NCBI GenBank assembly: GCA_018970165.1
Contig: JAGWWZ010000016.1
Location: forward strand, 1 to 42,820
Reading direction: 5' to 3'
Source of the DNA: Planctomycetota bacterium
GTDB lineage: Bacteria > Planctomycetota > Planctomycetia > Pirellulales > Pirellulaceae
DNA: 42,820 nt
Both the position numbers and the translations under genes were made by a program. Shown piece after piece: positions 3,251 to 20,363 of the stretch. Under the pieces are notes generated by a model that worked only from the letters and a program-made list of their open reading frames with translations, did not search any database and had not been told where the DNA came from. How positions within the stretch are numbered: the stretch's first letter is position 1; every line of letters begins with the position of its first letter.

Positions 3251-4375
3251 ATGATTTGCGTGCTCAAAGTACTACGTGGTCCGACGAATCGGTCCTCTCG
3301 GTATGTTCTCAGGGAGAACCAACATGTGGAGATTGGGAGGTCGACGAGTGCTGACATTTCTTTGCCCTCAGACTCGCATTTGTCTCGCAGGCATGTCCTC
3401 GTCGACTCGTTTGGTCGTGGGTTCTCTATTTGTGATTTAGGGAGTGTCAACGGCACCTACCTCAATGAAGAGCGTGTCATTCGTCGAGTTGAGTTGAAAA
3501 ACGGGGATGTGATTCGAATTGGCACGACACAATTTCGAGTCACGATGCTTGAGGACGATGCGAATCCTCATGCGGAAGACGGCGTTTTGTTCTCTTCTGC
3601 GATGACACAAGACATGGAACCCAAATGGGGAAGCAACGATGGACGCGAGCGGTCTGTCTCATTTCCGAATGCAGTACTTGACGACCAGACCTCCCGATGC
3701 GTTCCACAACCTGTGGCGCGTGTGGAAACTTTTCGAGACCCATTGCAACAAGCTACCGATTCCATCCAGAAAACTAAGGATTGGCATGCGCTCAAGGACT
3801 CACAGACTCCCGTTCGCATAGCGGCTTTTCCCGACGAAACAAGGAGTGAAGGATCGAGTAATACCCAGTTACCCTTTGCACTTCGGCATCCTTTTTCCGA
3901 TTACTTTGCTCCGTGCGAGGAACCGAATCTTTACAAGCTTACCAAGAAACCCGACTCCCCCTGGGGAAGTTTTGTGGGTTTGTTGCTTCTTGGTTCTCAT
4001 ACTGATCAGATACTATCGATTTTCAATCTGACTCAAGTGCAAACACGCGAAGCGAGCCTTTTGGATCGTCGACATCGAGATCGTCAACTGGCCTATCTTT
4101 CACGGACCATTCTTGCTGGAAGACTATCGGTTTCGGATTCGAGTCTGGGCTTGCTGGAAGCCTGTGCTGGTTGCGATGGTTTGATTTGTGTTGGTTCTCC
4201 CGAACGAATCGATTCCGAGGAACTCAAACCGTTTGCCAACTCTTTCAGCTATCCGTCCTTGTTCGGAGAGCACATGAAGGATCTCCGTTCACCCGCACGG
4301 CACTTCCTGCTCTGCAAAAGAGCTTGGGTTCTATTTGAATGGTCTCTCGAGGGACCGCTTGGCCTTTTTGTGTAG
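3251..4375 (+). CDS. FHA domain protein (374 aa), next to the DotU/IcmF fusion
   Basis: Residues 1-100 form a forkhead-associated domain, a phosphothreonine-binding module. It has the expected landmarks: VEIGRSTSADISLPSD (GR-S), the LSRRHVLV strand (S-R-x-H) and DLGSVNGTYLNEE (N-G-T). Residues 100-190 are polar and probably disordered. The C-terminal half (about 195-374) is a compact domain I do not recognise. No signal peptide or membrane segment is seen, so the protein is probably cytoplasmic. The ATG at 3251 lacks an obvious Shine-Dalgarno. The gene is convergent with the DotU-IcmF fusion, 26 bp away. FHA proteins (TagH/Fha type) commonly accompany T6SS genes, where they receive kinase signals. 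A role as phospho-sensor for the neighbouring membrane protein is inference. Confidence 0.85.
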   Translation: MICVLKVLRGPTNRSSRYVLRENQHVEIGRSTSADISLPSDSHLSRRHVLVDSFGRGFSICDLGSVNGTYLNEERVIRRVELKNGDVIRIGTTQFRVTMLEDDANPHAEDGVLFSSAMTQDMEPKWGSNDGRERSVSFPNAVLDDQTSRCVPQPVARVETFRDPLQQATDSIQKTKDWHALKDSQTPVRIAAFPDETRSEGSSNTQLPFALRHPFSDYFAPCEEPNLYKLTKKPDSPWGSFVGLLLLGSHTDQILSIFNLTQVQTREASLLDRRHRDRQLAYLSRTILAGRLSVSDSSLGLLEACAGCDGLICVGSPERIDSEELKPFANSFSYPSLFGEHMKDLRSPARHFLLCKRAWVLFEWSLEGPLGLFV

Positions 4376-4401: not shown

Positions 4402-6468
4402 TTAAAGCAGACTTTTGATCCACAGGGCCAGCACCGCAACGATTGCTATCAGCGACCCTAGTCCTCCCACCAGAGCGATCGCATTGGCGATGCGTCGATA
4501 GTGAGTATTCTTTTTGCTGGCTTCCTCCACCCATTCGACATCGTCGCTTACCTCCATAACTTTGTTGATCGCGCTTGGAACGAATGCCTGCCGTTCCTTC
4601 TTCGTACCACAAGCGATAAAGTAGCAACCGCTAAACAGGAACTGTGTATCGGACAGTTCGGGTTGCCTCAGAGGGTTATATCCAAAGCTGGTTTCCATAA
4701 TCTTGGATAGATTCTGTGCGAAAGTACCTCGCATTCGGCCGAGCAGACTGAAGAGTTTGGCATTTTGTTTATCTTGAAACCTGTCCTCTTCTTGGAAGAG
4801 TTCGAAGCAAAGATCTTCAAAAACTGCTGTCGCATGTTTTGCTAGGGAGGCCAAGCGTTTATTTTCAGGGCTAACCCAAACCTCGGAGCCTTTCCCAATT
4901 CTCGCCTTCTTCGTCCGTTGGGATCCTAATCGCGTCGTCATTGCGATGAATCCAGGTTCGTTTTCCATTCCGGTGACCAGCAGGGTATTCGCCACGCGAA
5001 CTTGCAATTCCTTTCTCAAGACTTTGAAGTCGGCTTGGAGGGCGATTGAAAGTTGTTCATCGTTGCTTTCGATCAACTCGAAGGGAATGGTTGTGACCAA
5101 TCCATTAATAGGGCAGACATTTTTTCGTGCGTTCCTGAGGATAGTGCATAGGTATCGGAGTCGATCTTCGGTATCTGCTAGGTCTTGGACCTGAACTCTT
5201 TTTTGAACTGCAGGAGTTGATATCGGGCCCTTCTTGTCGCGAATTTTGAAGTCATCGGTCAGTTGAATCGTTCCACCGGGGGCACCTGAGTCATCATCCT
5301 TTTCCCCATCGCCAGCCCCCCATTGGCCATCGTCGTCCTCATCATCCAGATCGGGGATGCTTTCCTCTACAACCATGGTGCCTTGGATGTCATCTTCATC
5401 TATGTCCTTTGCATTCCGGCTTGCTTGCTTGGCTTTAGCGGTTGGGGCATCGGAGGAATTACTCAACCGCGAAATCGCATTGCAGAGGTGAGGCATGATC
5501 CAAACAGCTTCCTTCGAGGCATGGATCGACAACGGCCCCTCACCTGACTTTGGTGAGACGATGGGTATCTTCAAGTTTGCAGCTTCGAGCAGTCGACGGT
5601 TTACGGCGAAATCCTGTGTTCCGAGCACGATGAAGATCGGAGTGGAATTGATGGAGATGCCATTGGCAACTAGCTGTTGGAATCCTTCTGTCATCACTCG
5701 ATCGATATCAGGGTACTTGGACGACTCTTTCTTCTTCTTGAGGACCAGGAACCAATATGCAAAGCCCGCAAGGACACAGACGATCGGGAGCCCGATCAGG
5801 GCGAGCAACCACTGATTCAGATAACCTGACCACAGCAAGATCGCGAGAGCAAGCAGAAAGAGACTGATCAAAGAATATTGGAGTATCTGCTTTTTTCCGT
5901 TGAGAGGGGTATTTTTTCCACCCACGATTGCTTCGCCGGGAATCTCAGGGCGTCCTTGCCGTAGGTCCAAAGATTTGGTGAATTTTTGAAACCACCGTTC
6001 CAGACTCTCAGGCAAGTCTAATTCGCGGGCTTTTTCCCGAACGGCTACTGATGGTTCATCGTAGAACCCGCGAAACCCTAAGACGACAGCAAGATAAAAA
6101 ACCTCCAATGCGTCTCTTTCCGCCAGATTGTCTGCGATTGATGCTTTAACAAAAAACTGTTCCCTCGCTACCTGCGTTTTGAAGTAATGCGATTCGAGGG
6201 AGTGGCTCTTCCACCAATTGCTCTCTTTCCATGGACTGTTGATCAGTCGAGAATCGATCCAGCAACAGATCGCGTATTTTGCCAGTTCCCATGCCTTCTT
6301 GTTGCTCCTTCCCAGCGCCTTGTCCGCAGCATCGATTCCGCTCGTCAATTTGGCTCTTTCATCGGAAGTGTTGAAGGAACTGTTGCTCTGCGAGGCCTCA
6401 ATTTTCGAAAAGAACTGCAACGCCGTTTCAAAAATAGGGTCGACTGCTTTGGCAAATTGAGGGGTCAT
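4402..6468 (-). CDS. DotU/TssL-IcmF/TssM fusion protein, T6SS-like inner-membrane anchor
   Basis: The protein has 688 aa. Residues 55-140 match the DotU/TssL core: AKYAICCWIDSRLINSPW, then FF, then EVFYLAVVLGFRGFYD. Two membrane segments follow (about 197-215 and 220-242), as at the IcmF N-terminus. Residues 270-335 and 430-650 resemble the IcmF/TssM cytoplasmic domain (PINGLVTTIPFELIE, VLRKELQVRVANTLLVTG, LFSGCYFIACG). A last membrane helix (about 658-685) ends the protein, so the large IcmF periplasmic domain is absent. Where IcmF has its Walker A loop this protein reads VLGTQDFAVN, so nucleotide binding is probably lost. An acidic linker (about 338-405) carries GTMVVEE and GGTIQLTDD, possible FHA-type phosphothreonine sites. 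GAGGAA at 6479-6474 sits 5 nt before the ATG. The DotU match is strong and the IcmF match moderate. Confidence 0.8.
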   Translation of the reverse strand: MTPQFAKAVDPIFETALQFFSKIEASQSNSSFNTSDERAKLTSGIDAADKALGRSNKKAWELAKYAICCWIDSRLINSPWKESNWWKSHSLESHYFKTQVAREQFFVKASIADNLAERDALEVFYLAVVLGFRGFYDEPSVAVREKARELDLPESLERWFQKFTKSLDLRQGRPEIPGEAIVGGKNTPLNGKKQILQYSLISLFLLALAILLWSGYLNQWLLALIGLPIVCVLAGFAYWFLVLKKKKESSKYPDIDRVMTEGFQQLVANGISINSTPIFIVLGTQDFAVNRRLLEAANLKIPIVSPKSGEGPLSIHASKEAVWIMPHLCNAISRLSNSSDAPTAKAKQASRNAKDIDEDDIQGTMVVEESIPDLDDEDDDGQWGAGDGEKDDDSGAPGGTIQLTDDFKIRDKKGPISTPAVQKRVQVQDLADTEDRLRYLCTILRNARKNVCPINGLVTTIPFELIESNDEQLSIALQADFKVLRKELQVRVANTLLVTGMENEPGFIAMTTRLGSQRTKKARIGKGSEVWVSPENKRLASLAKHATAVFEDLCFELFQEEDRFQDKQNAKLFSLLGRMRGTFAQNLSKIMETSFGYNPLRQPELSDTQFLFSGCYFIACGTKKERQAFVPSAINKVMEVSDDVEWVEEASKKNTHYRRIANAIALVGGLGSLIAIVAVLALWIKSLL

Positions 6469-7088: not shown

Positions 7089-7799
7089 ATGGATCGCTCA
7101 TCGATTTCGAAGAAGCAAAAGTACCTTTTTTTGGTATGTGCGTTTGGCCCTTTGCCGGGATGCGTTTCGGACCCGTACCAAGGTGCACCAGTTTCGAGTC
7201 GTCCTGTACCGACGAAGACTGTTCGCAGCGGTGATATAGCCGGAGACATAGCCGTTGATTCGAACAGTGCATCAAACGGGGCTCCTCATGATGTGATACT
7301 CTGCTCGGACAAGACTTCCAAAGTCGCTGTGGATCGGGAGGACCCGACCGACGTTGTAGTTACCAAGGTCTCGTTCGCTGGCGGAGGTGATCCCAAGGTC
7401 GAGACTCATATTCGACCTGCCCAGGATCCGTTGTGGCAAGTTTCGCAAAAAGCCAAATCCTTGGGCGAACCGTTTGGAGATGGAACGGAACCGGTCCGAT
7501 TCGCGCAAAGGAAGAGCAAAGCCGGGGACTTTATTTCCGGGATTGCGAACGCTGAACAACTCGTTCAAGCCAAAGTTGTCAAAGTCAGTGGCACTCGTAG
7601 CGCGATAGAATTTGACATGCCGCAGGCTTACGACCTTTCAGAAAACCAGCAGCTGATTTTGGTGGATCGCGCAGGCAATATTCAGGTCGGTTCGATCTCC
7701 GCAGTCCAAGGCAAGCGGATCAGCGTCAAATTTGACGACGCGATCATTCTTGGATCTTCAAAAGGGGATTCCGTGCGGGTTGGCTTGCTGAACCTGTAG
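7089..7799 (+). CDS. Putative lipoprotein with C-terminal beta domain (236 aa)
   Basis: The N-terminus has a basic stretch (SSISKKQK), a short hydrophobic core (YLFLVCAFG) and LPGC at the end, consistent with a lipobox with Cys at about residue 25. This suggests an exported lipoprotein, though Pro at -2 is unusual. Residues 30-150 are polar and low in structure. Residues 155-236 look like a small beta domain (QAKVVKVSGTRSAIEFDM, QLILVDRAGNIQVGSI). AGGA at 7077-7080 lies 8 nt before the ATG. The large pseudo-caspase/VWA gene follows in the same direction after 239 bp. Its place beside a DotU/IcmF homologue invites comparison with the T6SS lipoprotein TssJ, but I see no sequence similarity to TssJ. 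Function unknown. Confidence 0.7.
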   Translation: MDRSSISKKQKYLFLVCAFGPLPGCVSDPYQGAPVSSRPVPTKTVRSGDIAGDIAVDSNSASNGAPHDVILCSDKTSKVAVDREDPTDVVVTKVSFAGGGDPKVETHIRPAQDPLWQVSQKAKSLGEPFGDGTEPVRFAQRKSKAGDFISGIANAEQLVQAKVVKVSGTRSAIEFDMPQAYDLSENQQLILVDRAGNIQVGSISAVQGKRISVKFDDAIILGSSKGDSVRVGLLNL

Positions 7800-8027
7800 C
7801 CATCCTTCTTGAACACGCTGAAGTCCCGGTGTTTGCTTTGAGGCCACTTGTTTTCCATGGCAAGATCGGCTTTTCTCTTTTTTCGTAGCGGCCCGAGAAC
7901 ACCTGTATAAATGCGGGTGCAATTGTCTTACTCAGCCCGAAATCGCTTGTTATCATAGGGCGAAATAAAGAAAATCGCCTAATCGACGAGAGCGTCTGGG
8001 CAGATCATCTCTTGCACTACACACCTC

Positions 8028-8032
8028 GGGAG
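8028..8032 (+). promoter_or_regulatory. Ribosome binding site deciding the start of the 1653-aa gene
   Basis: GGGAG lies 6 nt before the ATG at 8039. The alternative TTG at 8012 has no comparable Shine-Dalgarno, so the shorter protein is preferred. Confidence 0.6.
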
Positions 8033-8038
8033 TTCACC

Positions 8039-11000
8039 ATGCCTGACTGGAGAGGAGGGGAGTTTTCGCGCAAAAAAGAGAAACCCAAGCGCGAATTCCC
8101 GCCGGTTTCACCCCAGCGCGAAAAAACTACTCAACCACAGGGTAAGCCAGAAGCGTTGCCGGGCAAACCGGTGGTGACGCGCAAGAAAATCAAGGAGCGT
8201 AAGAAGACCTGGGCACAAGGTGCAACATCTGGCTCGCTGGACCACAAAAAAATCTTGAGAGGGCTATCCCTTTGGGTTCTGGCGCCGGGAGCCGTTTTTG
8301 TTTCAGCATTGCTGATATACGTAGCTTCCGTCGGCAATGGTGAAGTGGAGCGAAGTGCGATTCCGCTACTGATGGTGCTCGCCAGCGAAAACCAGCCTTC
8401 CGAGTTAGGAGCATTAGGTGATCCTGACTCGAAGGGGACGCTGAATTCGGTTGCCAAGGTGCTGAGACCAAAGAGCAGTATCCTCTCAAACATGCGCGAG
8501 GATCCTCAGAACTGGCTACAAAAATTGTCCGATGATTTGGATGCAAGGAGCTTTTTCAAAGCTTCCAACTCCTCCCAAACTCTCCTGCGGGGTGGCGGAG
8601 CTTCGAACAATCTTATTGCATTCTATGTGAACTGCCACATAGTTCGTCGAGACCAGGAACTCACCTTGGTTTGCGATTCAAGCGAAATGGAATTCCCCTC
8701 TCCATGCGAGTCGAGCAACACCTCTAAGAAGCAGTTATCGTTAAAAGAGTCTCTCAAATATTTTGCGCAGCTAATCCCTGAAGACTGCTTCGCAATGGTC
8801 GGGTTCGACGTACGTACACCCACCCCAATTCACAACCTTGGGGATATCGGTTTTCCCGCCGACATCTTTCAAGCCGCGTTCGATAGCCTTACCAAGGAGG
8901 AAAAGCAAAAGCTCGTACTGTTTCTTCCCTGTGGCCAGGGACAGGAGAGTTGGGTGATGCCGAGCCACAGTATGTCGGTATTTGGCTTCTATTTTCTCGA
9001 GGCGCTTTCGGATCAACTTGAGGGGAATGATTTCTGCTCGGTCGGGGACTTCGATGAGGTACTGCGACGGAAAGTTTTCCACTGGGTATCGCGAAACCGC
9101 AACTCTCACCAGGAACCAGTGCGGATAGGCGATGAAGAGACTTGGAAAAGAATCCAGTCCGAAAAATTTGTTGGTTTTTTCTATGAGCATGCTAGGGGTG
9201 AGCAAAAGAAAGATGTACTCGATACCAGGAGGTTCAGCACTCGCTACAAGGAATTGAACAGCCTCTGGAAGCAATATGAGGAAGTCACAAAGGATCGGAT
9301 GGATCCCGATAAATTTCCCGCGCTAGCAAGCCTGGAGTCGCATCTACTGTTCTTAGAGGAGATGGTTGAACTCCAATCAGCAAACTGTGAGCAAATGCTC
9401 ATGGCAACTGAGAATTTGCTGAAACAGTTGAAGCCCGTGAGACGCGAGTACCAGGTCAGCCGCTTCGAAGACCAAAAAACAGAGGACGACCCACGCGTTG
9501 GAAACAAGGATTTAGAAAACCATATCTTCGAGATCCTGAGAGCGGAAATCGACCCGGATTCTCGCAACGATGAGAGCAAGAACAACCGTGCGGAAGAGAA
9601 ACTCGAATTGCTCATGGAGCGATGGGCTGAACTGCAGCGATTGGCATGCCATCCTCGGCGGGAACTTGCCTGGTGGATGCATGATCATGTAATGGCCCTT
9701 GATAACGAATTTCTGTGGGCAGTGGACGAGTTCACGGCGAACCATTTCGAAAAATGCGGAGATCTTTTAGTCAAAGCAAAGACTTCGATTGACAAAGCCA
9801 AAAAGTATCAAGTGAAGCTTCGGGAATGCATGGATTTTCGGGACGATGCAACTTCCCTACTTCCCCACGCCATGGCCTTTCTGTTGCGGATGGAAGCTTC
9901 CCTTCCACCAACCGTTCAAAATAAGACACCCCAAGAATTGGTGGAACAAGCCAAGCATTTAGCCATTATCGCTCTGGAAGTGGAACGCATTGAGAACCTT
10001 CTCAGTGAGCCCACCGCAGATCAGCAAAAACTGCTAAAGCTCGAAGTTGAGGAAGCCCCACGTTCGCGACTCAAAGCTTTCAAGGAGTGGGTCCTTCTAG
10101 GAATCATAAAGTCTTGGCTGGAAGACGAGAAAGTAGATGCAGAGGCGATTCGCAGATTGCGAATCGCCGTTCGCTATCCATTTCTACCGAACGATATGAG
10201 GAAGCGAGCCTACCATAAACTTGCTCAGCGTTTCGAGGAAGAATGTATACCTTCGCAGGAAGCCCGGGCTAGTGACCAATCCAGGACTGAATCAAACCGA
10301 TCAAGCAGCATTGTAACAGATGCCTTCCTCGATCAATTGGCCGCAACCGGGGCTTCCCAAGAGCTTCAAGCGTATTGGAAGACCGTCCTCCAAGAGGACC
10401 TTCGAAGCTCGAGGTTTTGGAAGATCGAACTCGCACAACCCAGCAAATATCGAGAGCTTTACGAAAATGTGCGAAAAGTCCGACGGGTTCTTGGATCTAT
10501 CGGAATGCATTCCGTTTCGCACGGTGACATGCTCACCTCAACGTGCGCGGGTAGGATCCTCGATTCCTATGGAGCGTTAAACGAACTTAAGTATCGCTAC
10601 ATGCAACAAGAGCGATTACTGGTCGCTGGGTGGGGTTCTCAAGAAATGGATCTCGCACAATTTGAGGGTGATTTCCCGTTCTTGGACTTCGCACGAAAGT
10701 ACTCATCCGGTTTCGAGGAAGTGCGCAAGAGAATCCTGCCTGCCTGGGACTTTCAAGAACAGATGCAAGAAGACCTCGATAATCGCTTTCTGTCTGATGC
10801 GAATCTATTGAAAGAGATGAGCCGTTGGCTCAAGACCGAAATCGGCGAGGACGCCAAGCTACAAGTAAACTGGACACCTAGCATAGAGCGCAACCTTCTA
10901 GAAGCCTGGGAGAGCATCAGGCCCACGGTGAAGATCGCCATGAATACTCTCTCCGGTAATGCATCTCTCGTATCATTGAGTCAAAAAGCAAGCGAACATA

Positions 11001-13000
11001 TCAGATATCCGGCCGATCAAGATATGAACTCTGCAGACATCGATGTAATGGTTGCCTTTCGCGGACACCGTATCAAATCCCAAGCGATGTCAAAACAGGT
11101 GCTCTATGCGAGCAACTTTCAACCGCAGCCACAATCGGAGATTATCGCATCGATGAAAAAGGCGAAGCGATCGGTTGTCATTCTCTTGGATTGCTCGGAC
11201 TCGATGGATAGCGAACGCATGAAGCAATCTAAAGAGCTGGTGACCGATCTGATCAACACGTTGCAAGAACAAGTCCTCACGGGCCTGGAAATCGAAGTCT
11301 CACTTGTGGTTTTTGGGATCTTGTCGACGGAAGAGGAACTTAAGCGATATCAATTTGCCCCCAGCAAGATCGCAAACAAAAACCTTGGATTTCTGCTTGC
11401 GGAAAACGGTTCTAGATTTTGCAGCGTCGCGCATACCGAGTTCTATCCGATCAAGGCAGATGAGCAAACTCGCACTCAATGGGCCAACTACCTAAGCACC
11501 CCATTTGTCGCTCCTGCGATCCATGCGCCATTGTATGATGCTATCGACTTTGCGTATTCCCATCTGCCGCCAGAAACGTCCATGGACGTAAGGGAGTTGG
11601 TGATCTTCGGGGATGGGGCAAATAATTTGGTACCTGCGATCTCCTACGATTCGATCATGAATGCAACAAAAGGGAGCGAGGGGGCAAAAGTGGCGAAAGT
11701 TGAAAAGCCGTACTATCTCAATGTCCTACAGCAAATTCCGGAGAAGCTTCGGAAAACGAAGCTATCTTATGAGGGTCCGAGTCGCGAATTACCGGATGTG
11801 ATCAGTCAGTTAGACAAGAAGAACCCTCGCATCTATCTGTATGACTGCGGTAGGATCGGCGATGGGAAAGGAAAACAGGAATCGCGAAGTTTTGAAGAAG
11901 AGCTCCTAGCAAGAGATTTGCTTCCGAAGTCAACTGTAAAGGCAAACATAACCTTCGATGGAATGAAACAAGGGATGCTCAAGGATTTCGCGTTGCCGCA
12001 GATCAAGGTCTCCTATGTGGATTCATCCAGCGAGCAGGAAACCGCCGTGTCATTTCTGGAAGAGTCTCCTACTTCGATCCGACCTGCTCCGATATCCCTA
12101 AAAGTTTTTGGAAATTCGAGTTTCGAGTCCCCAAAGAAACGACCCGAAGTAATTGAAGCCTTCCCTGGACAAGTTATTCGGGTCGAATCCGATATCCGAG
12201 GAAACGGATTGAATTTCAAGTCGCCGCAAACGCTTCGGGAAAATAATCCGTTGAGTGCAAATCTGGTTTCCAAGTTGGACATGGGTAAAGTCAATAACGC
12301 ATCGAACTACAAGATGACTTGGGAGTTTCAAAAAGCCGAACGGAGGAATGGCAAGTTCGATTTGCTTGTGGAACTACGGAGAGAGCAAGAGTGGGATCCA
12401 CCTAGCTATATGCCTTGGCCAAAGTTCGCTGTCGGAAAACTCCTTCGCAAGCATCCGAGTGGAAATGCGACCTCAATTGCAGATGCCATCTTGTTTACCG
12501 ACTTGGATTTTGAAAAGAAGCATTACCCTACGTTGAAATTTCGTGTCGAGAAGTTGAAAGACGACTCGTGGGATTTGACGGCAGGAACTTTGGACTTATG
12601 GTGGTCTTTTTCCAGTGCCCAGGAGCTTTTTGGAAATCGCGAAGATATTCGGACCAAGGTGAAAAGCGATTTATCCTCGAAAAAATTCCGAAATTGCTCG
12701 ATCGCGCGGAAAGATGGATCGATTCAAGTCGAACGAGAGTTGCAAGTACGGGAGAACGCCTATCAGTGGATACTTTGCCCGGACGCTGCGATGGTGAGCC
12801 GCGAGTATCGAATTCGTGCAGGCAAAGAAAATCGCTGGAGTGAGGTTCATACTTTTGAATTGCCCCTCGCGAATGCAACGAAGGAAGTGGACATGTACAT
12901 CTTCTCTGAAGAGGATGTCTCATACATTGCCGAGGATTCCGTTTCAGAAAAATCCCCGATCTTCTGGTATACAGGGGAGACGAAACCGCGGTCACAATAA
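8039..13000 (+). CDS. Giant membrane-anchored protein with caspase-like and VWA domains (1653 aa)
   Basis: Residues 1-72 are basic and Pro-rich, and a single membrane helix lies at about 76-98. Residues 190-380 resemble a peptidase C14/caspase-like fold: LIAFYVNCHIV at the usual GHG position, MVGFDVRTP where the catalytic DxC is expected, then KQKLVLFLPCGQGQESW, SVFGFYFLEALSDQL and QEPVRIGDEE. The usual catalytic Cys appears replaced, so this is probably a pseudo-protease. Residues 400-1030 are mainly helical and unrecognised. A VWA domain starts near 1040, with MIDAS motif LLDCSDSM (DxSxS) and later VIFGDGANN. The last 350 residues look beta-rich. The ATG at 8039 is chosen over an in-frame TTG at 8012 because GGGAG (8028-8032) lies 6 nt upstream of it. 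It lies downstream of the lipoprotein and near the DotU-IcmF fusion. A scaffold role at the inner membrane is inference. Confidence 0.8.
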   Translation: MPDWRGGEFSRKKEKPKREFPPVSPQREKTTQPQGKPEALPGKPVVTRKKIKERKKTWAQGATSGSLDHKKILRGLSLWVLAPGAVFVSALLIYVASVGNGEVERSAIPLLMVLASENQPSELGALGDPDSKGTLNSVAKVLRPKSSILSNMREDPQNWLQKLSDDLDARSFFKASNSSQTLLRGGGASNNLIAFYVNCHIVRRDQELTLVCDSSEMEFPSPCESSNTSKKQLSLKESLKYFAQLIPEDCFAMVGFDVRTPTPIHNLGDIGFPADIFQAAFDSLTKEEKQKLVLFLPCGQGQESWVMPSHSMSVFGFYFLEALSDQLEGNDFCSVGDFDEVLRRKVFHWVSRNRNSHQEPVRIGDEETWKRIQSEKFVGFFYEHARGEQKKDVLDTRRFSTRYKELNSLWKQYEEVTKDRMDPDKFPALASLESHLLFLEEMVELQSANCEQMLMATENLLKQLKPVRREYQVSRFEDQKTEDDPRVGNKDLENHIFEILRAEIDPDSRNDESKNNRAEEKLELLMERWAELQRLACHPRRELAWWMHDHVMALDNEFLWAVDEFTANHFEKCGDLLVKAKTSIDKAKKYQVKLRECMDFRDDATSLLPHAMAFLLRMEASLPPTVQNKTPQELVEQAKHLAIIALEVERIENLLSEPTADQQKLLKLEVEEAPRSRLKAFKEWVLLGIIKSWLEDEKVDAEAIRRLRIAVRYPFLPNDMRKRAYHKLAQRFEEECIPSQEARASDQSRTESNRSSSIVTDAFLDQLAATGASQELQAYWKTVLQEDLRSSRFWKIELAQPSKYRELYENVRKVRRVLGSIGMHSVSHGDMLTSTCAGRILDSYGALNELKYRYMQQERLLVAGWGSQEMDLAQFEGDFPFLDFARKYSSGFEEVRKRILPAWDFQEQMQEDLDNRFLSDANLLKEMSRWLKTEIGEDAKLQVNWTPSIERNLLEAWESIRPTVKIAMNTLSGNASLVSLSQKASEHIRYPADQDMNSADIDVMVAFRGHRIKSQAMSKQVLYASNFQPQPQSEIIASMKKAKRSVVILLDCSDSMDSERMKQSKELVTDLINTLQEQVLTGLEIEVSLVVFGILSTEEELKRYQFAPSKIANKNLGFLLAENGSRFCSVAHTEFYPIKADEQTRTQWANYLSTPFVAPAIHAPLYDAIDFAYSHLPPETSMDVRELVIFGDGANNLVPAISYDSIMNATKGSEGAKVAKVEKPYYLNVLQQIPEKLRKTKLSYEGPSRELPDVISQLDKKNPRIYLYDCGRIGDGKGKQESRSFEEELLARDLLPKSTVKANITFDGMKQGMLKDFALPQIKVSYVDSSSEQETAVSFLEESPTSIRPAPISLKVFGNSSFESPKKRPEVIEAFPGQVIRVESDIRGNGLNFKSPQTLRENNPLSANLVSKLDMGKVNNASNYKMTWEFQKAERRNGKFDLLVELRREQEWDPPSYMPWPKFAVGKLLRKHPSGNATSIADAILFTDLDFEKKHYPTLKFRVEKLKDDSWDLTAGTLDLWWSFSSAQELFGNREDIRTKVKSDLSSKKFRNCSIARKDGSIQVERELQVRENAYQWILCPDAAMVSREYRIRAGKENRWSEVHTFELPLANATKEVDMYIFSEEDVSYIAEDSVSEKSPIFWYTGETKPRSQ

Positions 13001-13067: not shown

Positions 13068-15269
13068 CTATGGCAATTGCATGCTTCGGCGGAAAGCATT
13101 CTGAACTTTCTCGGCGATGGTCTTCCGCGGGAGTTCAAAGTGGATCGTGGCGATGGCATAAATTGCTAGGTAGCCATTCAGTGGCAGACTCGGTTCGAGA
13201 ACCACTTGATAGTGGGGCGAATCAAACTGCATTTTCCCGCGTTCGTCACGTATTCCGACGATGCTAGGATCCCCCATCAATGGTTGTGGTAGTTCGCGCA
13301 GAGGTTCTGGCGAGATTTTTTTCACTGTACATGGCCAACGGCGATTGGGTTGCGAATCCAAGATTGCTTCTGCGCGACTGCCGATCGTCAGGGCGCGAGC
13401 CTCTGACTCGGGAACAGCTACCTGAAAAACGTATCGCTCATCGGAGGATAGCCAACCGACCACTGTTCCTCGCTGGATAGAAGCGCCTGTTGGAGGATTA
13501 TCGAAAATTGGCCGGCGCACCCAGGTTGGCTCGCCCAGTTCGAAAGGCATCATCAGAGGGATCGATACGGGTGTAAGAATCTTTGGTTCCGATGCTACCA
13601 TGCGGAGAGCATCGACTTCCTGTTGCTTGATGGTGAATCTTGCATCTAGCTCCTCCTGCAGTTCCCTCAATGTAGGCAATTCAAACTCCGCCTCATCGGC
13701 ATTGACTTTGGCTTTTTCCAGCAATCGTATCCGGGTAGTAACTTCTTCGCGTTGATGCTTTAACTCCAACCACTCTTTTCGCCGCTCGAACGATTCGGTG
13801 TCGAGGACAATTTGCCCAGACTCCATTGGGCCCACTCGAGCGGCAACGGACACTAAATCGGCGGTATCATGCATGAAGATGGGCTGTCGGTTTTCTTGTT
13901 CAAGGTAAGCTCGCGAATGCACATAACCAGGAATCGGAATATAGAAGATAAACCATACCACAGCAGCAATCGCTGCAACTAAGACCGCGACTCGAGATAG
14001 ATGAATCGGTCGAGGACTGAAGGACTCGAGGATCAGCCCTTGGGCAAAACGGATGTTTACTATCACCAGACCGAGTCCTAAGGAACCGATGATCAGCAAA
14101 GCGAGAATGCCAAAGCCGTTAGGCACTAACAGCGTCCAAACAACCAGCACGATCAAAATGAGCATCGCAAATCGATATAAACCCGATACCAACGCGAACA
14201 GGGCCAACTGCCAAACGGGTTTATCGAAAACGTGACGTTGCGGCTCTCTGCCGCCGAGGAAGTGTACCATGGTCTGCCACAAAGCGGTCTGGCTCTGAGG
14301 TCCTAAATTAGGTACTCCCCATAGATCGGAAAGAATGTAATAACCATCGTAACGGAAGCAGGGGTTACCGTTGAGCAACAGAGTTCCAACCGTACATGTA
14401 ATCCAGGCCCCCGCTCCGATCGTCTGCCAAAATTCATGATCTGAGTTCAGGAAAAGGAGCCCGCCAAAGATTGCTAACCAGAGTTCCACATAGATCCCGC
14501 CAGCTGAGATAGCGGATCTTTGCCAACGAGACCTTAACTTCCAAGCATTCGTCGTATCGCAGTACAGACATGGGGAAAAACAAAGAAGCATGAACCCCAA
14601 TTCCTGGCAGTCAACTTTCCAGCGGGCACACGCGAGGTAGTGCCCCAATTCATGCAGAGTCTTGATACCCACCAACATCAGCAAGAGAGCTAGCCATCTA
14701 TCTCCCTGAAGTCGCGAGATATCAAAAAAAATTCTTTCCGGCTGGGTAAGCCATTGTGAGAGGAGCAGGAAACTGACAATGGCCATGCTGATACAGCCAA
14801 GAATAATGGTCCACGGATGGTACAGCATTGCACTGATCCCACTAGCCATCCGCGAATATCCAGATGGCCGAATCAGGGGGATCCTAATGGATAGAGGGTT
14901 CGCCGCGATTTGTAGGACAAGCCTTTTCCAGGTGCTGTTGTACGTCGGATAACGTGCGGGGCCTCCCGTGGGCATTAGCAAACCAGCCATATGCAGTCGC
15001 TTGGTCAGCGACTCGATCCACGACAACTGGGATGCAACCGCACTTTGCCATCGGCTGCAGATTTCGACGATCTGGCTAAGACTTTTCGAGCCATCAAATA
15101 GTTGGGCGGTGCGGTGCTCGATCTCGTTGAAGTAGAAGAACGCGTTGGAGACCGGATCATGCAGGACCCACCTGTGGTTCTTGGAGTAGGGGATCCAATT
15201 CAGATCCTTTCGCAACACAGGATGGAACGACTCAGGGATTCGGCATGGAAGATCCTCCTCAACGCTCAT
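13068..15269 (-). CDS. M50 zinc metalloprotease fused to HlyD-type domain, winged-helix/PqqD-like N-terminus (733 aa)
   Basis: Residues 1-100 look like a small winged-helix/PqqD-like domain (FYFNEIEHRTAQLFDG; RLHMAGLLMP), the sort that binds peptides in RiPP systems. The M50 (site-2 protease-like) core has the zinc motif HELGH near residue 210 and NPCFRYDGYY near 300 (NPxxxxDG), set among several hydrophobic helices. After the last membrane segment (about 430-450), residues 455-733 form a HlyD-like periplasmic part with a coiled coil (about 500-555) and a barrel (VVGWLSSDERYVFQVAVPESEARAL). This layout is that of the putative peptide zinc metalloprotease family common in planctomycetes. Its ATG overlaps the stop of the HlyD adaptor gene by 4 nt (ATGA), so the two are translationally coupled. 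Likely role: processing or export of a substrate across the inner membrane with the neighbouring adaptors. Confidence 0.87.
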   Translation of the reverse strand: MSVEEDLPCRIPESFHPVLRKDLNWIPYSKNHRWVLHDPVSNAFFYFNEIEHRTAQLFDGSKSLSQIVEICSRWQSAVASQLSWIESLTKRLHMAGLLMPTGGPARYPTYNSTWKRLVLQIAANPLSIRIPLIRPSGYSRMASGISAMLYHPWTIILGCISMAIVSFLLLSQWLTQPERIFFDISRLQGDRWLALLLMLVGIKTLHELGHYLACARWKVDCQELGFMLLCFSPCLYCDTTNAWKLRSRWQRSAISAGGIYVELWLAIFGGLLFLNSDHEFWQTIGAGAWITCTVGTLLLNGNPCFRYDGYYILSDLWGVPNLGPQSQTALWQTMVHFLGGREPQRHVFDKPVWQLALFALVSGLYRFAMLILIVLVVWTLLVPNGFGILALLIIGSLGLGLVIVNIRFAQGLILESFSPRPIHLSRVAVLVAAIAAVVWFIFYIPIPGYVHSRAYLEQENRQPIFMHDTADLVSVAARVGPMESGQIVLDTESFERRKEWLELKHQREEVTTRIRLLEKAKVNADEAEFELPTLRELQEELDARFTIKQQEVDALRMVASEPKILTPVSIPLMMPFELGEPTWVRRPIFDNPPTGASIQRGTVVGWLSSDERYVFQVAVPESEARALTIGSRAEAILDSQPNRRWPCTVKKISPEPLRELPQPLMGDPSIVGIRDERGKMQFDSPHYQVVLEPSLPLNGYLAIYAIATIHFELPRKTIAEKVQNAFRRSMQLP

Positions 15270-16228
15270 GGTTGCCCTTTGAGATGGACGGTTGGACGGA
15301 GACCCGGTCGGAGTTTTTGCTCTTGGTTTTCCACTTCGATAAAGACGCGAACCTGCCCACTCACAGGATTGGCATCAGGACTAATGAAGACCAATTCCCC
15401 TTCCGTTTCTAAAGTGGAGCCAGCAAAGTCAACGCGTACCATCGCCTTGGTACCTATCCATCTCGGATCGGCATCGGCAGCATTCAGAAAACCTTCGACT
15501 CTCAGGCGATCGATCTCCACAATTCGGACGACGACCGTTCCTGGTTCCACCCACTCACCAACACGTTTCTCGACAGCCACCACCATCCCTGCACAGGGTG
15601 CGATCACACGGTGTCGAAGAAGTAATTCTTGGTTTTGCCTCACTTCGGCCTCAGCAAGCGTTGTCTCAAGCCTCGCCACCTCACGCAGGTACTCAGCACG
15701 TTGCATCTCGAGCACGGAGCGATCGAGTATCAACTTCAGCCGATCGATCTCGTTGGGGGTGTAGACATTGTTCACACGCGAGTTGGCATCCATTGCTCTT
15801 TGATATTCATTCGTGGCAACAGCCGAACCCTTCTGTGCGATTTGCAGATCAATGTCGTTGTCTTGCTTCTTTTTCGCAACCTCCACCGCCGTTTGAGATC
15901 GTTCCAATTGAAGACGAATGGTTACATCTCGGATCCGAGCAATCTCTTCTCCCTGATTAACCCTCGAGCCTTCTTTGATATGCAGGTTCTGTAAGATACC
16001 CGCAACTTGAGAAGCCACCGCAGTAGATTCAATCGTTTTCAGTATCGCTCCCTCGACGACTACGGCCGCCGGCTGGGAATCGGATCGATTCGGTGCTGGC
16101 TGATCCAAATCCTGGCCGAAAAGGGATGTTTGTGCGATAAAGACTGCTCCTGCACTAATCGCTATACGCAAAACAGAACGTACCAAGGGACGGTGTTGGT
16201 CGGTAACCCTGTTAATCGCTGACATCAT
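15266..16228 (-). CDS. HlyD/RND-type periplasmic adaptor subunit (320 aa)
   Basis: A membrane or signal segment (LRIAISAGAVFIAQTSLFGQ) is followed by a biotinyl-lipoyl-like half-motif (VASQVAGILQNLHIKEGSRVNQGEEIARI), an alpha-helical hairpin (about 105-205) and the second half-motif (VIAPCAGMVVAVEKRVGEWVEPGTVV). A barrel with LRPGLRPTV at the C-terminus completes the membrane-fusion-protein order. The start is set at the ATG at 16228 because it overlaps the upstream gene stop as ATGA, like the junction with the M50 gene. An in-frame TTG at 16270 would add 14 residues and is less likely. Adaptors of this family bridge an inner-membrane pump and a TolC-type channel. No pump gene is in the window, and the M50 protein is the only inner-membrane candidate in the operon. 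Confidence 0.88.
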   Translation of the reverse strand: MMSAINRVTDQHRPLVRSVLRIAISAGAVFIAQTSLFGQDLDQPAPNRSDSQPAAVVVEGAILKTIESTAVASQVAGILQNLHIKEGSRVNQGEEIARIRDVTIRLQLERSQTAVEVAKKKQDNDIDLQIAQKGSAVATNEYQRAMDANSRVNNVYTPNEIDRLKLILDRSVLEMQRAEYLREVARLETTLAEAEVRQNQELLLRHRVIAPCAGMVVAVEKRVGEWVEPGTVVVRIVEIDRLRVEGFLNAADADPRWIGTKAMVRVDFAGSTLETEGELVFISPDANPVSGQVRVFIEVENQEQKLRPGLRPTVHLKGQP

Positions 16229-18219
16229 CGGAAATCCGTAGTAGGTGCGGCGGTAGAATGTTGTTGCCAACTGAATAGACGAAATCTCTTCTGCAGGAAT
16301 TCAATCAACGGCCGACTCCAAACGTAGCCGAATGGTTCTTTCCCGCATGCAAAGCGAACCCGAGCGGTCGCACCCATATGTACTTTTGAGGCATCCTCGC
16401 GGATGACATTTGCCAGTACTTCCTGAAATCCCCCTGTACCGTCGCGGTTCTCGATGACGCGAGAAATATCCTTAACCGCGGCGACGAACTGCTGGCTGGG
16501 TAGACTATCGAAACTGTATTGAATCTCCTTTTCCAGCGGTTTCCCACCCCGTTCGCCGTAGTATCTGCCAACGTAATCAGAGTCTCTGTCCGCAACTTGA
16601 ATTCTCAACTGCCAATCACCGGATAGATCTACCACTTGCAGAATCGGATCGCCGCGTCGAATCGGTCGATTTTCCAGTTCCTGTTTCAGTTGCTTGGCAA
16701 CGATGATACCGTCGATCGGGGATCGCAGGACCAAGCGAGCTTGCTCTGCTTGGTAGAAGGACAACATCTCGCGAGCTTGTGTCTCGTTGGAATCCAACAT
16801 CAGCAATTCGGTCGATAAACGCGTCTGATTAGCGAGGGAATCCTGAGCGTTAGGGGACAGCTGATTTATGGCCACCTTGAGTCCATTGCGTTTTTCCGCA
16901 ATTGCACGAAGTCGCCCCATCGCTTCTTCAATCTGCAAATCCAAGCTTGGGGATCGCAGACGAGCAAGTTCCTGCTGGGCGACTACTCGGTCTCCATCAT
17001 CCACCAACAGCTCGGCAACATATCCGTCTGCAGATGCGTGAATCAAGCGACGGGATACCGGCTCGAGGATCGCCTTGGATTCAATGCTCATTGGAAAGGG
17101 TAGGGTCAGCCCCCATAAAAGTCCTGCTATCAATGATATCCACAGCAACCTGCGAATCCACTTTCTGACGACCCTCGGGATCATCGATGCGTGGGATTGG
17201 GTGAAACGTTCCCGCAACCTCATTGGGAGGCGAGTCCAACGATCTTGTTGCAACCAAACACCGTGTAGCGAATTGCACCAAGAAGAAAGAAACGGGATCG
17301 CCTTATTCATCGAGACCGTATCCGACCATTCGATGATCAGCCAAGAGACAGGGGTTCGATCGGTGTTTCGATCCCAAGTCAGCGCGATTCCATTGGCGAA
17401 GACGCCGAAACTGTCCCGATTCGAGACTCCTGAATCCACAGGTATTGCCGGCTCGTCGGGATCACGAACCGGCGATCGATCGCTCCATTGCAAGACGCCC
17501 GTAGACCTCGAGGCTATTTCAGCGATTTGCTCGAGCCGTTTTACTGTCGGGCTGGTTCGGTCTACCCCATGCGCTCCACTCGAGCACGAGAGTCGAAAGG
17601 AGTTGCTTCCCAACTCTATGCGATTCACCATCGAAGCACGGGCACCCTCGAGAGCTAGCACCAGTTGGTCTACCAAACTTTGACCGACCTGTTGGGGCGA
17701 AGAGGCCGACGTCAGGCTACGAACCGCCGACTCCAGCCGACTAAACCAGGAACGATCCAGTGCCGATCGCGAAAACTCCAGCCTCGTTTGGATGATTTCA
17801 CAGAAGGGATCCAACAAGAGCCGACCACTCTCGACCAATGAAGAAGGGGAATCGGAGGAGTACTCAAACAGTAGTATTCCGCTTTCGGACTGACGGGTAT
17901 CGATGGTGGCGGCTACCCATTTTCCGGAGGATTTCCCCCCCTCCAGCACGAAGCTTGTAGGACTTCGCCTTTTCAACTCCGCGAATTCAACCAGGTGGTT
18001 GCTGGAGACTTCACCGGACGACGCGACGATCAACCATTCACCATTGGCTGGACAGAGAATGCTGACGCTTTGGGCGTGGGTCAGTCCCTGAGCCACCATG
18101 AAAAAATGGCGATAGAAGTCTCCATCCGAGTTGGCTGTTAGAGCAAGTTGCTCCAAACCCTCAAGCAGTTGATCTGCTTCAGCAACGCTAGCAATAGAGC
18201 CAACAAGTGATGGAGGCAC
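16225..18219 (-). CDS. GAF-like/HlyD hybrid adaptor protein (664 aa)
   Basis: The first 330 residues are cytoplasmic in character and resemble one or two degenerate GAF domains (HFFMVAQGLTHAQSVSILCP; SLVDQLVLALEGARASMVNRI). One membrane helix (about 352-372, WISLIAGLLWGLTLPFPMSI) leads into a HlyD-type adaptor: RLIHASADGYVAELLVDDGD, a helical hairpin (about 430-510), LVLRSPIDGIIVAKQL, and a barrel with VHMGATARVRF. The start codon is GTG at 18219; an ATG 5 nt upstream is out of frame. It is the first gene of the three-gene minus operon and is divergent from the TolC-like gene across about 235 bp. A GAF-HlyD combination suggests that export is gated by a cytoplasmic signal. The GAF assignment is tentative. 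Confidence 0.82.
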   Translation of the reverse strand: MPPSLVGSIASVAEADQLLEGLEQLALTANSDGDFYRHFFMVAQGLTHAQSVSILCPANGEWLIVASSGEVSSNHLVEFAELKRRSPTSFVLEGGKSSGKWVAATIDTRQSESGILLFEYSSDSPSSLVESGRLLLDPFCEIIQTRLEFSRSALDRSWFSRLESAVRSLTSASSPQQVGQSLVDQLVLALEGARASMVNRIELGSNSFRLSCSSGAHGVDRTSPTVKRLEQIAEIASRSTGVLQWSDRSPVRDPDEPAIPVDSGVSNRDSFGVFANGIALTWDRNTDRTPVSWLIIEWSDTVSMNKAIPFLSSWCNSLHGVWLQQDRWTRLPMRLRERFTQSHASMIPRVVRKWIRRLLWISLIAGLLWGLTLPFPMSIESKAILEPVSRRLIHASADGYVAELLVDDGDRVVAQQELARLRSPSLDLQIEEAMGRLRAIAEKRNGLKVAINQLSPNAQDSLANQTRLSTELLMLDSNETQAREMLSFYQAEQARLVLRSPIDGIIVAKQLKQELENRPIRRGDPILQVVDLSGDWQLRIQVADRDSDYVGRYYGERGGKPLEKEIQYSFDSLPSQQFVAAVKDISRVIENRDGTGGFQEVLANVIREDASKVHMGATARVRFACGKEPFGYVWSRPLIEFLQKRFRLFSWQQHSTAAPTTDFR

Positions 18220-18455
18220 GTCATTCTCAGTTCACACGAGGTTCTCTTTACTCGAGCAATCGTATCATTCTGCTGGAGCAATAACCACCATTCAAACTAC
18301 CCTTTCGCGGGGAGGTCAAGCGATTCCGTCCGGAAGTGGCCAAGAATTCGGTGGGGTAGTTACATATGTATCAAGTATAGGGTCTTTGCTATCCGACAAC
18401 GTAAGGGGAGCGCCGCAAGCTCCGTAATTCGCGACTTCGCAGAGTGTGGCTAGCC
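18220..18455. promoter_or_regulatory. Divergent intergenic region between adaptor operon and TolC-like gene
   Basis: About 235 bp must hold the promoters for the GAF-HlyD operon (leftward) and the TolC-like gene (rightward). A small inverted repeat, GGAGC-gccgcaa-GCTCC (18407-18423), lies just upstream of the TolC start. No convincing sigma70 pair is visible. Confidence 0.4.
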
Positions 18456-20363
18456 ATGAGAGCCCGACACATGACCCTGAAAAAATCGTATGAAGAGTCC
18501 TACCGAGCATTTCGCTTCATAGCGGTGCTAGCGATTTCGTGCACTGGGTGCAATCTTTCGGAAAGCCGCCCAAAGTTCCACGCCAGTCATTTTGGCAATG
18601 GGCCAATTCCGCAACTGCGGCCTTCCGATCCACTGGACTCCGCGAATATGCCAGCTTATGCGGAGCCGCTTTCTCCGTTTGACATACAGGAGACGGACCT
18701 GACGCCGGACCGTTTTCGCGGAATGTCACTGGAGAATTGTATTGCCGAAGCGCTGAGCAACTCGCGTTTGATGCGTGATCTGGGTGTGACCGTTCTGCGT
18801 TCCAGCGCTCTGGCGCGCACGAACTTGGATCCTGCGATTGTCTACAGCGATCCGCGGCAAGGGGAAGAAGCAGCATTGAGTGCTTTCGACGCGAACCTGT
18901 TCGCATCGAGCTTCTTCGAGAACAACAACAAAGGATTCAATAACAGTTTCTACGGTCAAAACGGTATATTCAGTCAGGATCTTAGCACCACTCAGGTGGG
19001 TATCAACAAGCGATCGGCGACCGGTGCGATCTTTACGGTTAGAGAAGTCTCGGTTTTCGACCGAAACAACCAAGCTGGCAACCGCTTCGGCCCCTACAGT
19101 TGGGACAATTTCATTGAAGCTCAAGCAAGGCAGCCTTTGCTCCTCGGGTCTGGAACCGAATTCAACAGAATCGCTGGTCCCGGCGCGACACCTGGGCAAC
19201 TTAACGGTGTATTGCTCGCACGCGTTCGCACCGACATCAGTCTCGTTGAGTTTGAGACTTCGGTCCGCGACTTCGTAGCCGACGTGGAAAATGCCTACTG
19301 GGACCTCTACTACGCATACCGCGATTTGGACGCCCGCATCGATGCTAGAAATATCGCGCAGGAAACCGAAAAATACATTCTCGCGAAGAACGACACTCCC
19401 GCCCAAGATCTTGCGCAGGCCAAAGAGCAAAGCATTCGGTTTCAAGCCGACGTTGTCGATGCATTGAACGGAAGACCATTGGACGGAACCAGAACCAACA
19501 ATGGAAGTTCCGGAGGCACGTTCCGTGGTGCGGGTGGAGTACGCGTTTGTGAAAGAAAACTAAGGCTTCTCATCGGCGCACCCATTAATGATGGGATGTT
19601 AATCCATACGCTCGATCATCCTACGACTGCGAACGTGTTATTTGACTGGAGTACTTGCATCGATGAAGCTCTCCAATTCCGGGAGGAATTGCGTCGCCAG
19701 AGATGGGTCATCAAGCAACATGAGTTGGAACTGATCGCGAATAGGAACTTTCTCAAGCCTCAGTTGGATGCGATTTCGACTTACCGGATTCGCGGATTCG
19801 GAGAGGATTGGCGATCTCCTTGGAACTCCGATTTCTCCGAATGGGCGCTCGGCCTTGATTACCAAATGCCGGTCGGTTTCCGTCGCGGGAATTCAGCAGT
19901 TCGGTTCTCGCAATTGCAACTCGTTCGTGCTACGGAATTGCTCCGAGAACAGGAACGAGCGGTTCACTTTGGATTGAGCAATGCGATTAATGACGCGAAG
20001 CGATCGTTCGATATCGTAAATCTTCAACGAGAACGTCTGGTCGCCATCACCGACCAGTTAGAGGCAACGCGAGAAATCTTTACAAAGGATGGATTCCGGG
20101 AATTGGACGTCGTTCTGGAGACACATCGCCGACTGCTGGATGCTAGGCTTCGATACTTCCAGGCCGAAGTGGAATACGGATTGTCTCTGCGGAATGTCAA
20201 TCTGGAGAAAGGTACGTTGTTACGATACTGCAACGTCTTCCTGAGCGAATCAGCTACCGACGGAGTTGCGGTTGCTAAATCGCGTGATCGCGTAGAAGCT
20301 CAGGATTATAATAAGGTTCCCGGTTATCGGGATTTGATTATCGGACGCCCCTCTTACCGCTGA
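18456..20363 (+). CDS. TolC-like outer-membrane efflux protein (635 aa)
   Basis: A basic start and hydrophobic segment (FRFIAVLAISCTGC) end in cysteines compatible with lipoprotein processing, as in OprM-type factors. The body has the alternating coiled-coil and strand pattern of outer-membrane efflux proteins: LENCIAEALSNSRLMRDLG, then VRDFVADVENAYWDLYYAYRDLDARI, and the second repeat RFSQLQLVRATELLREQERA with VNLQRERLVAITDQLEATREIF. At 635 aa it is longer than typical TolC (about 470-490), with extra sequence around 100-240 and 340-380. The start is uncertain: GTG at 18444, ATG at 18456 and ATG at 18471 are all in frame, and none has a strong Shine-Dalgarno. It is divergent from the adaptor operon and probably the outer-membrane channel of the same export complex. 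Confidence 0.87.
   Translation: MRARHMTLKKSYEESYRAFRFIAVLAISCTGCNLSESRPKFHASHFGNGPIPQLRPSDPLDSANMPAYAEPLSPFDIQETDLTPDRFRGMSLENCIAEALSNSRLMRDLGVTVLRSSALARTNLDPAIVYSDPRQGEEAALSAFDANLFASSFFENNNKGFNNSFYGQNGIFSQDLSTTQVGINKRSATGAIFTVREVSVFDRNNQAGNRFGPYSWDNFIEAQARQPLLLGSGTEFNRIAGPGATPGQLNGVLLARVRTDISLVEFETSVRDFVADVENAYWDLYYAYRDLDARIDARNIAQETEKYILAKNDTPAQDLAQAKEQSIRFQADVVDALNGRPLDGTRTNNGSSGGTFRGAGGVRVCERKLRLLIGAPINDGMLIHTLDHPTTANVLFDWSTCIDEALQFREELRRQRWVIKQHELELIANRNFLKPQLDAISTYRIRGFGEDWRSPWNSDFSEWALGLDYQMPVGFRRGNSAVRFSQLQLVRATELLREQERAVHFGLSNAINDAKRSFDIVNLQRERLVAITDQLEATREIFTKDGFRELDVVLETHRRLLDARLRYFQAEVEYGLSLRNVNLEKGTLLRYCNVFLSESATDGVAVAKSRDRVEAQDYNKVPGYRDLIIGRPSYR

Follow-up and report, generated by a model that had tools for sequence, protein, structure and literature searches.

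In the canonical proteobacterial type VI secretion system (T6SS-i), whose membrane complex is TssJLM, the periplasmic part of TssM is given as about 750 residues (PMC4256274), and accounts from Bacteroidota (PMC10781749) and Acinetobacter (PMC10564176) describe T6SS membrane complexes that can be built from other proteins. Among planctomycetes, many T6SS-related genes are reported for R. baltica (PMC5394234), and T6SS has been noted in freshwater Planctomycetacia (PMC6461901). Here we analyzed a stretch of 42,820 nucleotides (the window; contig JAGWWZ010000016.1 of a Pirellulaceae genome, GCA_018970165.1) in which a single gene at 4402–6468, minus strand, joins DotU (TssL) to the cytoplasmic part of IcmF (TssM). 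The gene is real and unusual, and what it represents is a T6SS membrane complex in variant form, not a system of a new kind. With confidence a little above even, we read the locus as a planctomycete-type T6SS inner-membrane platform that was retained after loss of the contractile machine and is now a fixed, non-firing scaffold; the platform has probably been repurposed, and such a function is what we infer for it. Its orphan state and the group-wide redesign of the complex are more interesting than the fusion.

The window is the entire contig C48 of a 5.2-Mb genome (330 contigs, 95.9% complete, 1.8% contaminated), and the fusion open reading frame (ORF) begins with ATG and encodes 688 amino acids (aa) with no internal stops. 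The earlier note, made from the letters of this DNA, had proposed that TssL/DotU and the cytoplasmic part of TssM/IcmF lie in one polypeptide, and both Pfam domains indeed score over their cut-offs in this one ORF: PF09850 (DotU) reaches 85.2 bits at residues 28–216 (cut-off 27) and PF14331 (IcmF-related_N) 34.9 bits at residues 435–628 (cut-off 25), inside the 270–650 interval where that note expected IcmF similarity. NCBIfam TIGR03349 stayed under its cut-off (65.5 bits against 89.95). The type IVB IcmH/DotU profile NF038228 also fell short (26.6 bits against 50), which does not place the fusion with the type IVB (Dot/Icm) pair. An AlphaFold model built from a 34-row alignment (mean predicted local distance difference test score, pLDDT, 84.5; predicted template-modelling score 0.60) matched the solved TssL domain 6y4r_F over residues 3–172 with Z 19.0, such that the DotU/TssL cytoplasmic domain (residues 1–190, 5899–6468, minus strand) appears by hydropathy, model and structure match as an all-helical domain followed by a membrane helix. 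Residues ~252–645 matched GTPase folds (EngB 3pqc_B, Z 10.6; Arf6 1e0s, Z 10.3), so the second half is a GTPase fold; no TssM chain stood among the 50 matches listed for this part, which is not evidence of a difference. This pseudo-GTPase domain (residues 252–646, 4531–5715, minus strand; Pfam, AlphaFold and fold match) carries a low-confidence acidic insert at ~342–425, and its Walker A position reads GTQDFAVN (residues 283–290, 5599–5622, minus strand), the dead P-loop already recognized in that note and placed here by aligning the fusion to 24 further short TssMs and to three full-length ones.

Hydropathy places three membrane helices in the fusion, at residues 195–213 (5830–5886), 224–242 (5743–5799) and 664–682 (4423–4479), all on the minus strand. 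The polypeptide had been described as ending directly after the third IcmF-like helix, which is right as to the end, six residues following the last helix, but is corrected here as to the origin of the helices: helix 195–213 most likely represents the C-terminal helix of DotU itself, standing where the first of TssM's own three would be. The fusion seems to keep this DotU helix together with IcmF helices 2 and 3, and to drop IcmF helix 1, because helix 195–213 comes after a PLNGK stretch that precedes a helix in other DotUs (alignment) and because of the similarity boundaries in G537, the closest relative and a member of the same genus. Similarity to the G537 DotU covers fusion residues 1–210, extending into helix 195–213, and similarity to its IcmF begins at fusion residue 217, corresponding to IcmF residue 72, between IcmF helix 1 (41–59) and helix 2 (79–97). 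Against two further loci the IcmF alignment reaches further left (to fusion residue 172 with L080 and 188 with L082), and the first hydrophobic stretch is therefore alignable to DotU or IcmF. Whichever alignment holds, two helices precede the IcmF cytoplasmic part in the fusion versus three in the separate proteins, and this even number is predicted to keep both halves cytoplasmic, with topology preserved.

That a whole helix was lost in frame makes it unlikely that the junction is an artefact. The corresponding alternative, in which a stop codon was lost or a deletion introduced in assembly or sequencing and the real genes are separate, draws on the rarity of the fusion: fused genes occurred in 0 of 59 loci from named genomes (mostly Pirellulales, e.g., Rhodopirellula, Stieleria, Blastopirellula; both ORFs present in 48), and in an additional set of 121 loci, partly overlapping, of which 60 hold both ORFs, the window's ORF alone was matched by both profiles, so that the planctomycete survey proposed in the earlier note finds the fusion unique to the window among the loci examined. 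The junction is, moreover, known from the assembly alone. Set against these points, the in-frame junction removes one helix with topology kept and the structure model is confident on both halves, and we consider an artefact very improbable. Open frames of 804–821 aa in G381, G327 and G087 would suggest that the fusion is common in relatives, a candidate rejected by the DNA, which holds stops after DotU in G327 and G087 and separate DotU and IcmF ORFs in G381. The IcmF ORF of locus L094, at 683 aa seemingly long enough, sits in another frame than its DotU.

Loss of the P-loop and of the periplasmic domain had been presented as peculiar to this gene, a view that did not survive comparison: both are traits of short planctomycete TssMs generally, and what sets this genome apart is just the fusion and the missing partner machine. 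The P-loop is absent in 25 of 25 short TssMs in our alignment, fusion included, and is retained in three full-length TssMs of the same data (GPPGSGKS, GESGTGKT, GPSAAGKT), so that a dead P-loop special to this gene was rejected. This alignment took 25 of 34 IcmF-labelled ORFs, omitting near copies (L034, L036), L038, L039, L041, L085 and L094, and the full-length TssMs L050 and L095. Short TssMs stop 1–22 residues past the last helix (an IcmF ORF being present in 48 of the 59 loci), with the exceptions of 202-aa pieces in L150, L157 and L163, of L158 (53 aa by hydropathy) and of a full-length Ignavibacteria gene (L178, 704 aa). These TssM-like ORFs of just 202 aa (L150, 9446; L163, 10662; L157, 870) are followed in L150 and L163 by one of the giant proteins described below, with an IcmF-like ORF of 521–605 aa on the other strand, and are possibly parts of a split TssM.

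Marker searches covered 26 genomes for TssK, VipB and the TssM periplasmic domain PF06761, and 20 for TssF, chosen by us as matching class members plus some non-matching ones. PF06761 was found in 2 of the 26, both outside the class (open frames of 1133 and 1157 aa), and did not match a TssM of 1175 aa in G217 (L050). In six-frame translation of the window's genome PF06761 had no match, and the fusion, with its six residues after the last helix, is without a TssM periplasmic domain. PF14331 matched the fusion gene only, so no separate TssM was found. A full TssM elsewhere in the genome was accordingly rejected, neither of the two outcomes that the earlier note named as refuting it was seen, and slippage restoring a C-terminus was rejected on the missing PF06761 and on an FHA gene lying 26 bases away.

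We then evaluated the company these genes keep. A phylum census found matches to the fusion in 64 of 392 genomes, and all 15 class relatives with a match also have TssK and VipB. In the family census 83 of 199 genomes matched the fusion protein and 81 matched TssK, with 80 holding both (lists compared by eye); a fusion match without TssK occurred in the window's genome, G453 and G503, and TssK without a fusion match in G470. The DotU match in G503 begins at base 24 of a 4.7-kb contig, and its TssK may therefore lie off the contig. Gene order is TssK-DotU-IcmF in G205, G381, G333 and G327, and in G339 DotU and IcmF stand among TssA, TssC, TssE, TssF and TssG, so that in relatives each half lies next to TssK or among other T6SS genes, which supports the reduced T6SS-like anchor that the earlier note had put forward. 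Separately, G453 gave no match to TssK or Hcp, and its locus (L182, 9415–11700) has the DotU stop immediately followed by an IcmF apparently without N-terminal helices; it is maybe a second orphan anchor.

The window's genome gave no match to TssK, VipB, TssF or Hcp (ClpV, VgrG, TssA, TssB, TssE and TssG were not searched). Within the 14 genomes of the genus, four others hold the anchor pair with TssK, TssF and Hcp, nine were negative for the fusion protein as well as for TssK and TssF, and the window's genome alone has the anchor without TssK and TssF. Hcp matched in 7 of 10 genomes examined, with none in this genome, G453 or G503; another member of the same genus (G490) has six consecutive Hcp matches in one 1136-aa open frame (C1:1158397–1161279), perhaps a poly-Hcp protein. 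The earlier suggestion that the platform may be unrelated to contractile injection fits the present genome as far as these four markers show, and fails as to origin, which is a true T6SS membrane complex.

These absences could also arise if a working T6SS were present with its remaining genes in the unassembled part, the fusion being a fused TssLM of a normal system. Consistent with this, completeness is 95.9% over 330 contigs, some relatives (e.g., G339, G121) carry TssK at a long distance from DotU-IcmF, and the searches covered four markers. Arguing the other way, the four missing markers are scattered in G537 (Hcp on C42; TssK and TssF ~59 kb apart on C87), and the usual tssK site beside DotU is assembled here and empty. 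We rate a hidden working system as improbable.

Comparison with G537 revealed a shared arrangement. That relative has IcmF, DotU and TssK on one strand and, on the other, a giant protein A of 1483 aa followed by a lipoprotein-like protein of 389 aa and a giant protein B of 1673 aa. The window has the fusion on one strand and, on the other, a 236-aa lipoprotein followed by a 1662-aa giant B. Hidden tssK or giant A remnants left no significant trace in the window by tblastn (best E 1.0 and 2.3) and were rejected. The lipoprotein (7089–7799, plus strand), with a lipobox-like LPGC, is a shortened homologue of four 364–396-aa T6SS-locus proteins and shares their C-terminal domain (lipobox-like cysteine in three of the four); it is a candidate TssJ analogue, with no Pfam or NCBIfam TssJ match to accompany its lipobox-like site. 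Giant B (8012–13000, plus strand) has an N-terminal tail with WRGG, a helix at residues 89–107 and a VWA domain with DxSxS, and it is 23% identical to the G537 giant B over 1279 columns; the ~1550 aa after its helix are presumed periplasmic from hydropathy only.

Giants of 1448–1910 aa recur beside anchor genes, with 44 in the fetched loci (the window's included, one partial), of which 42 carry a hydrophobic helix within their N-terminal 300 residues and 40 have, ahead of the helix, a W whose next residue is R, T, K, M or S. VWA_2 matches 11 of 12 type-B members at E up to 1 (metal motif DxSxS), and the best Foldseek matches of type B are VWA domains. The model of the giant is poor (pLDDT 55), its best PDB matches being VWA-domain chains, mostly Ku80; by sequence the giant had no match to solved structures, and the scanned giants matched no over-cut-off Pfam or NCBIfam family apart from VWA. 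A caspase-like domain, considered on motif impression for the N-terminal periplasmic portion of the giants, was dropped, the recurrent Pfam match being VWA only. We infer that the giants substitute for TssM's missing periplasmic domain, and their linkage to T6SS loci is frequent but not universal.

To summarize how such a platform might have arisen, separate TssL and short TssM would, in relatives, be the inner-membrane docking site of the TssK baseplate, and envelope crossing, for which TssJ and the periplasmic domain of TssM are missing, would fall to giant single-helix proteins with a lipoprotein. In the present genome a stop codon and the first TssM helix would have been lost, making TssL and TssM one protein with both halves cytoplasmic. 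Together with the giant B and lipoprotein that it holds, the platform would form a fixed scaffold in the envelope that no longer fires, perhaps controlled via neighbouring FHA (phosphopeptide-binding) proteins. A T6SS platform is argued for because the anchor pair of relatives co-occurs with TssK and VipB and because the window matches the G537 order; its retention after loss of the machine is argued for because the four markers are missing here, with TssK, TssF and Hcp present in the four matching genomes of the genus. More tentatively, and as a possibility we would not place near even, Pirellulales may have a third membrane-complex design (TssL, P-loop-dead half TssM, lipoprotein, giants), in which single-helix giants of ~1450–1900 aa, one kind with VWA, would replace the TssM periplasmic domain and TssJ, and in this genome the complex, with TssL and TssM fused, would have become independent of the contractile tail and serve by itself as a trans-envelope platform.

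The main rival to a retained platform is a decaying relic, in which loss of the T6SS was recent and the anchor genes, left behind without a function, have had too little time to gather stops. System absence is common, nine of the 14 genus genomes matching neither the fusion protein nor TssK nor TssF, and the IcmF half evolves faster. On the other side, the fusion and giant B are both intact ORFs whose codon-position composition is normal, the two halves are joined in frame with topology kept, and the DotU part deviates at only 1 of 44 positions invariant in eight relatives (nine DotU rows, the window's plus eight picked for closeness). Neutral simulation of the fusion plus giant B at 0.1 amino-acid changes per codon never produced fewer than 8 stops in 50 runs, so neutral drift to that extent would leave several stops, a very recent loss being still compatible with the simulation. 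Since the large ORFs are intact relative to the simulated stops and the DotU part is conserved, we interpret the anchor as probably maintained, and decay as a serious possibility to which we give well under even weight.

Several observations weigh against a retained platform. The IcmF part deviates at 6 of 40 positions invariant in 14 relatives, each IcmF relative deviating at 0–2 of 34–36 positions, and its branch is 1.14 versus 0.36–0.74 in five of six clade mates (L087, 1.21); this long branch and the deviating sites also fit relaxed constraint. The lipoprotein is without ~150 middle residues of its homologues, and in giant B the conserved VWA metal-site threonine has become alanine, both as a relic would have it. 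Type-B homologues in G566 (1204 aa) and G572 (1174 aa) are without a predicted helix, the periplasmic placement of the giants is a reading of hydropathy only, and a giant was found in 21 of 37 suitable loci (those that include TssK with no less than 5.5 kb of sequence on its upstream side), with none by the profiles used in the other 16. With 330 contigs and 95.9% completeness, the marker absence is not proof. Taken with the conserved DotU part, we hold with limited confidence that constraint on the anchor has changed rather than vanished.

Beyond the anchor, an FHA-domain protein (3251–4375, plus strand; ORF and Pfam) is convergent with the fusion, with 26 bases between stop codons, and is linked to it by position only. 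A second FHA protein (20379–21530, minus strand) has homologues near giant B, those of G509 and G413 aligning along the greater part of the protein and that of G520 by the FHA domain alone, and a protein without an assigned family (21796–22617, plus strand) has homologues adjoining giant B in G413 and G520. Between giant B and these lies a block of M50-peptidase/HlyD, HlyD, HlyD and outer-membrane efflux (OEP) genes (13068–20363; Pfam and BLAST), whose efflux gene at 18444 is 60% identical to a gene beside giant B in G509; its M50/HlyD part recurs in G413 (L117), where it comes after ClpV and the rest of the T6SS cluster, and in G137 (L049), where it is a neighbour of DotU. The block may be a T6SS-linked export module, its link to the anchor being unproven. 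Near the anchor genes there are also a sigma-54 activator with FHA and GAF domains (22706–24559) and a 745-aa protein with a weak VWA match (26319–28556; 22 bits, below cut-off). Sigma-54 −24/−12 sites showed no excess in the window (21 matches versus 18 expected) and were rejected as promoter candidates. At the left end of the contig (4–1496), short ORFs 4–291/697–984 and 435–719/1128–1496 are pairwise similar, which suggests a putative tandem duplication of ~690 bases.

Searches of an open-licence library listed no title concerned with fused TssL and TssM, with short TssMs of planctomycetes or a half TssM as a group trait, or with the giants, which is not proof of absence from print. The fusion genome separates a T6SS membrane platform from the contractile tail with which it is normally seen, and the relatives suggest that a large planctomycete group solved envelope crossing differently; with many natural TssMs lacking the P-loop or the periplasmic part, the roles of the TssM GTPase fold and periplasmic domain become testable. 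Relative to TssJLM of T6SS-i, the locus shares the TssL fold, the IcmF-related cytoplasmic domain and, in many relatives, an adjacent TssK, but differs in its single polypeptide with a dead P-loop and no periplasmic domain, in a genome without TssK, VipB, TssF or Hcp matches. Like the interrupted tssM described for Citrobacter rodentium (PMC4256274), it stops early, but the slippage reported there restores the full protein, whereas here the FHA gene ends 26 bases away and six-frame translation gave no PF06761 match. As in the account of TssNQOPR of Bacteroidota T6SS-iii (PMC10781749), the envelope part is made of phylum-specific proteins, although here TssL and half of TssM are kept and VWA is the sole over-cut-off family of the giants. 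Finally, the non-canonical membrane complex described from Acinetobacter (PMC10564176) lacks a canonical TssJ and uses extra envelope proteins, as may be the case here, where no TssJ profile matched, but where that TssM is described as having gained an extra domain, the TssM seen here has lost its entire periplasmic part.
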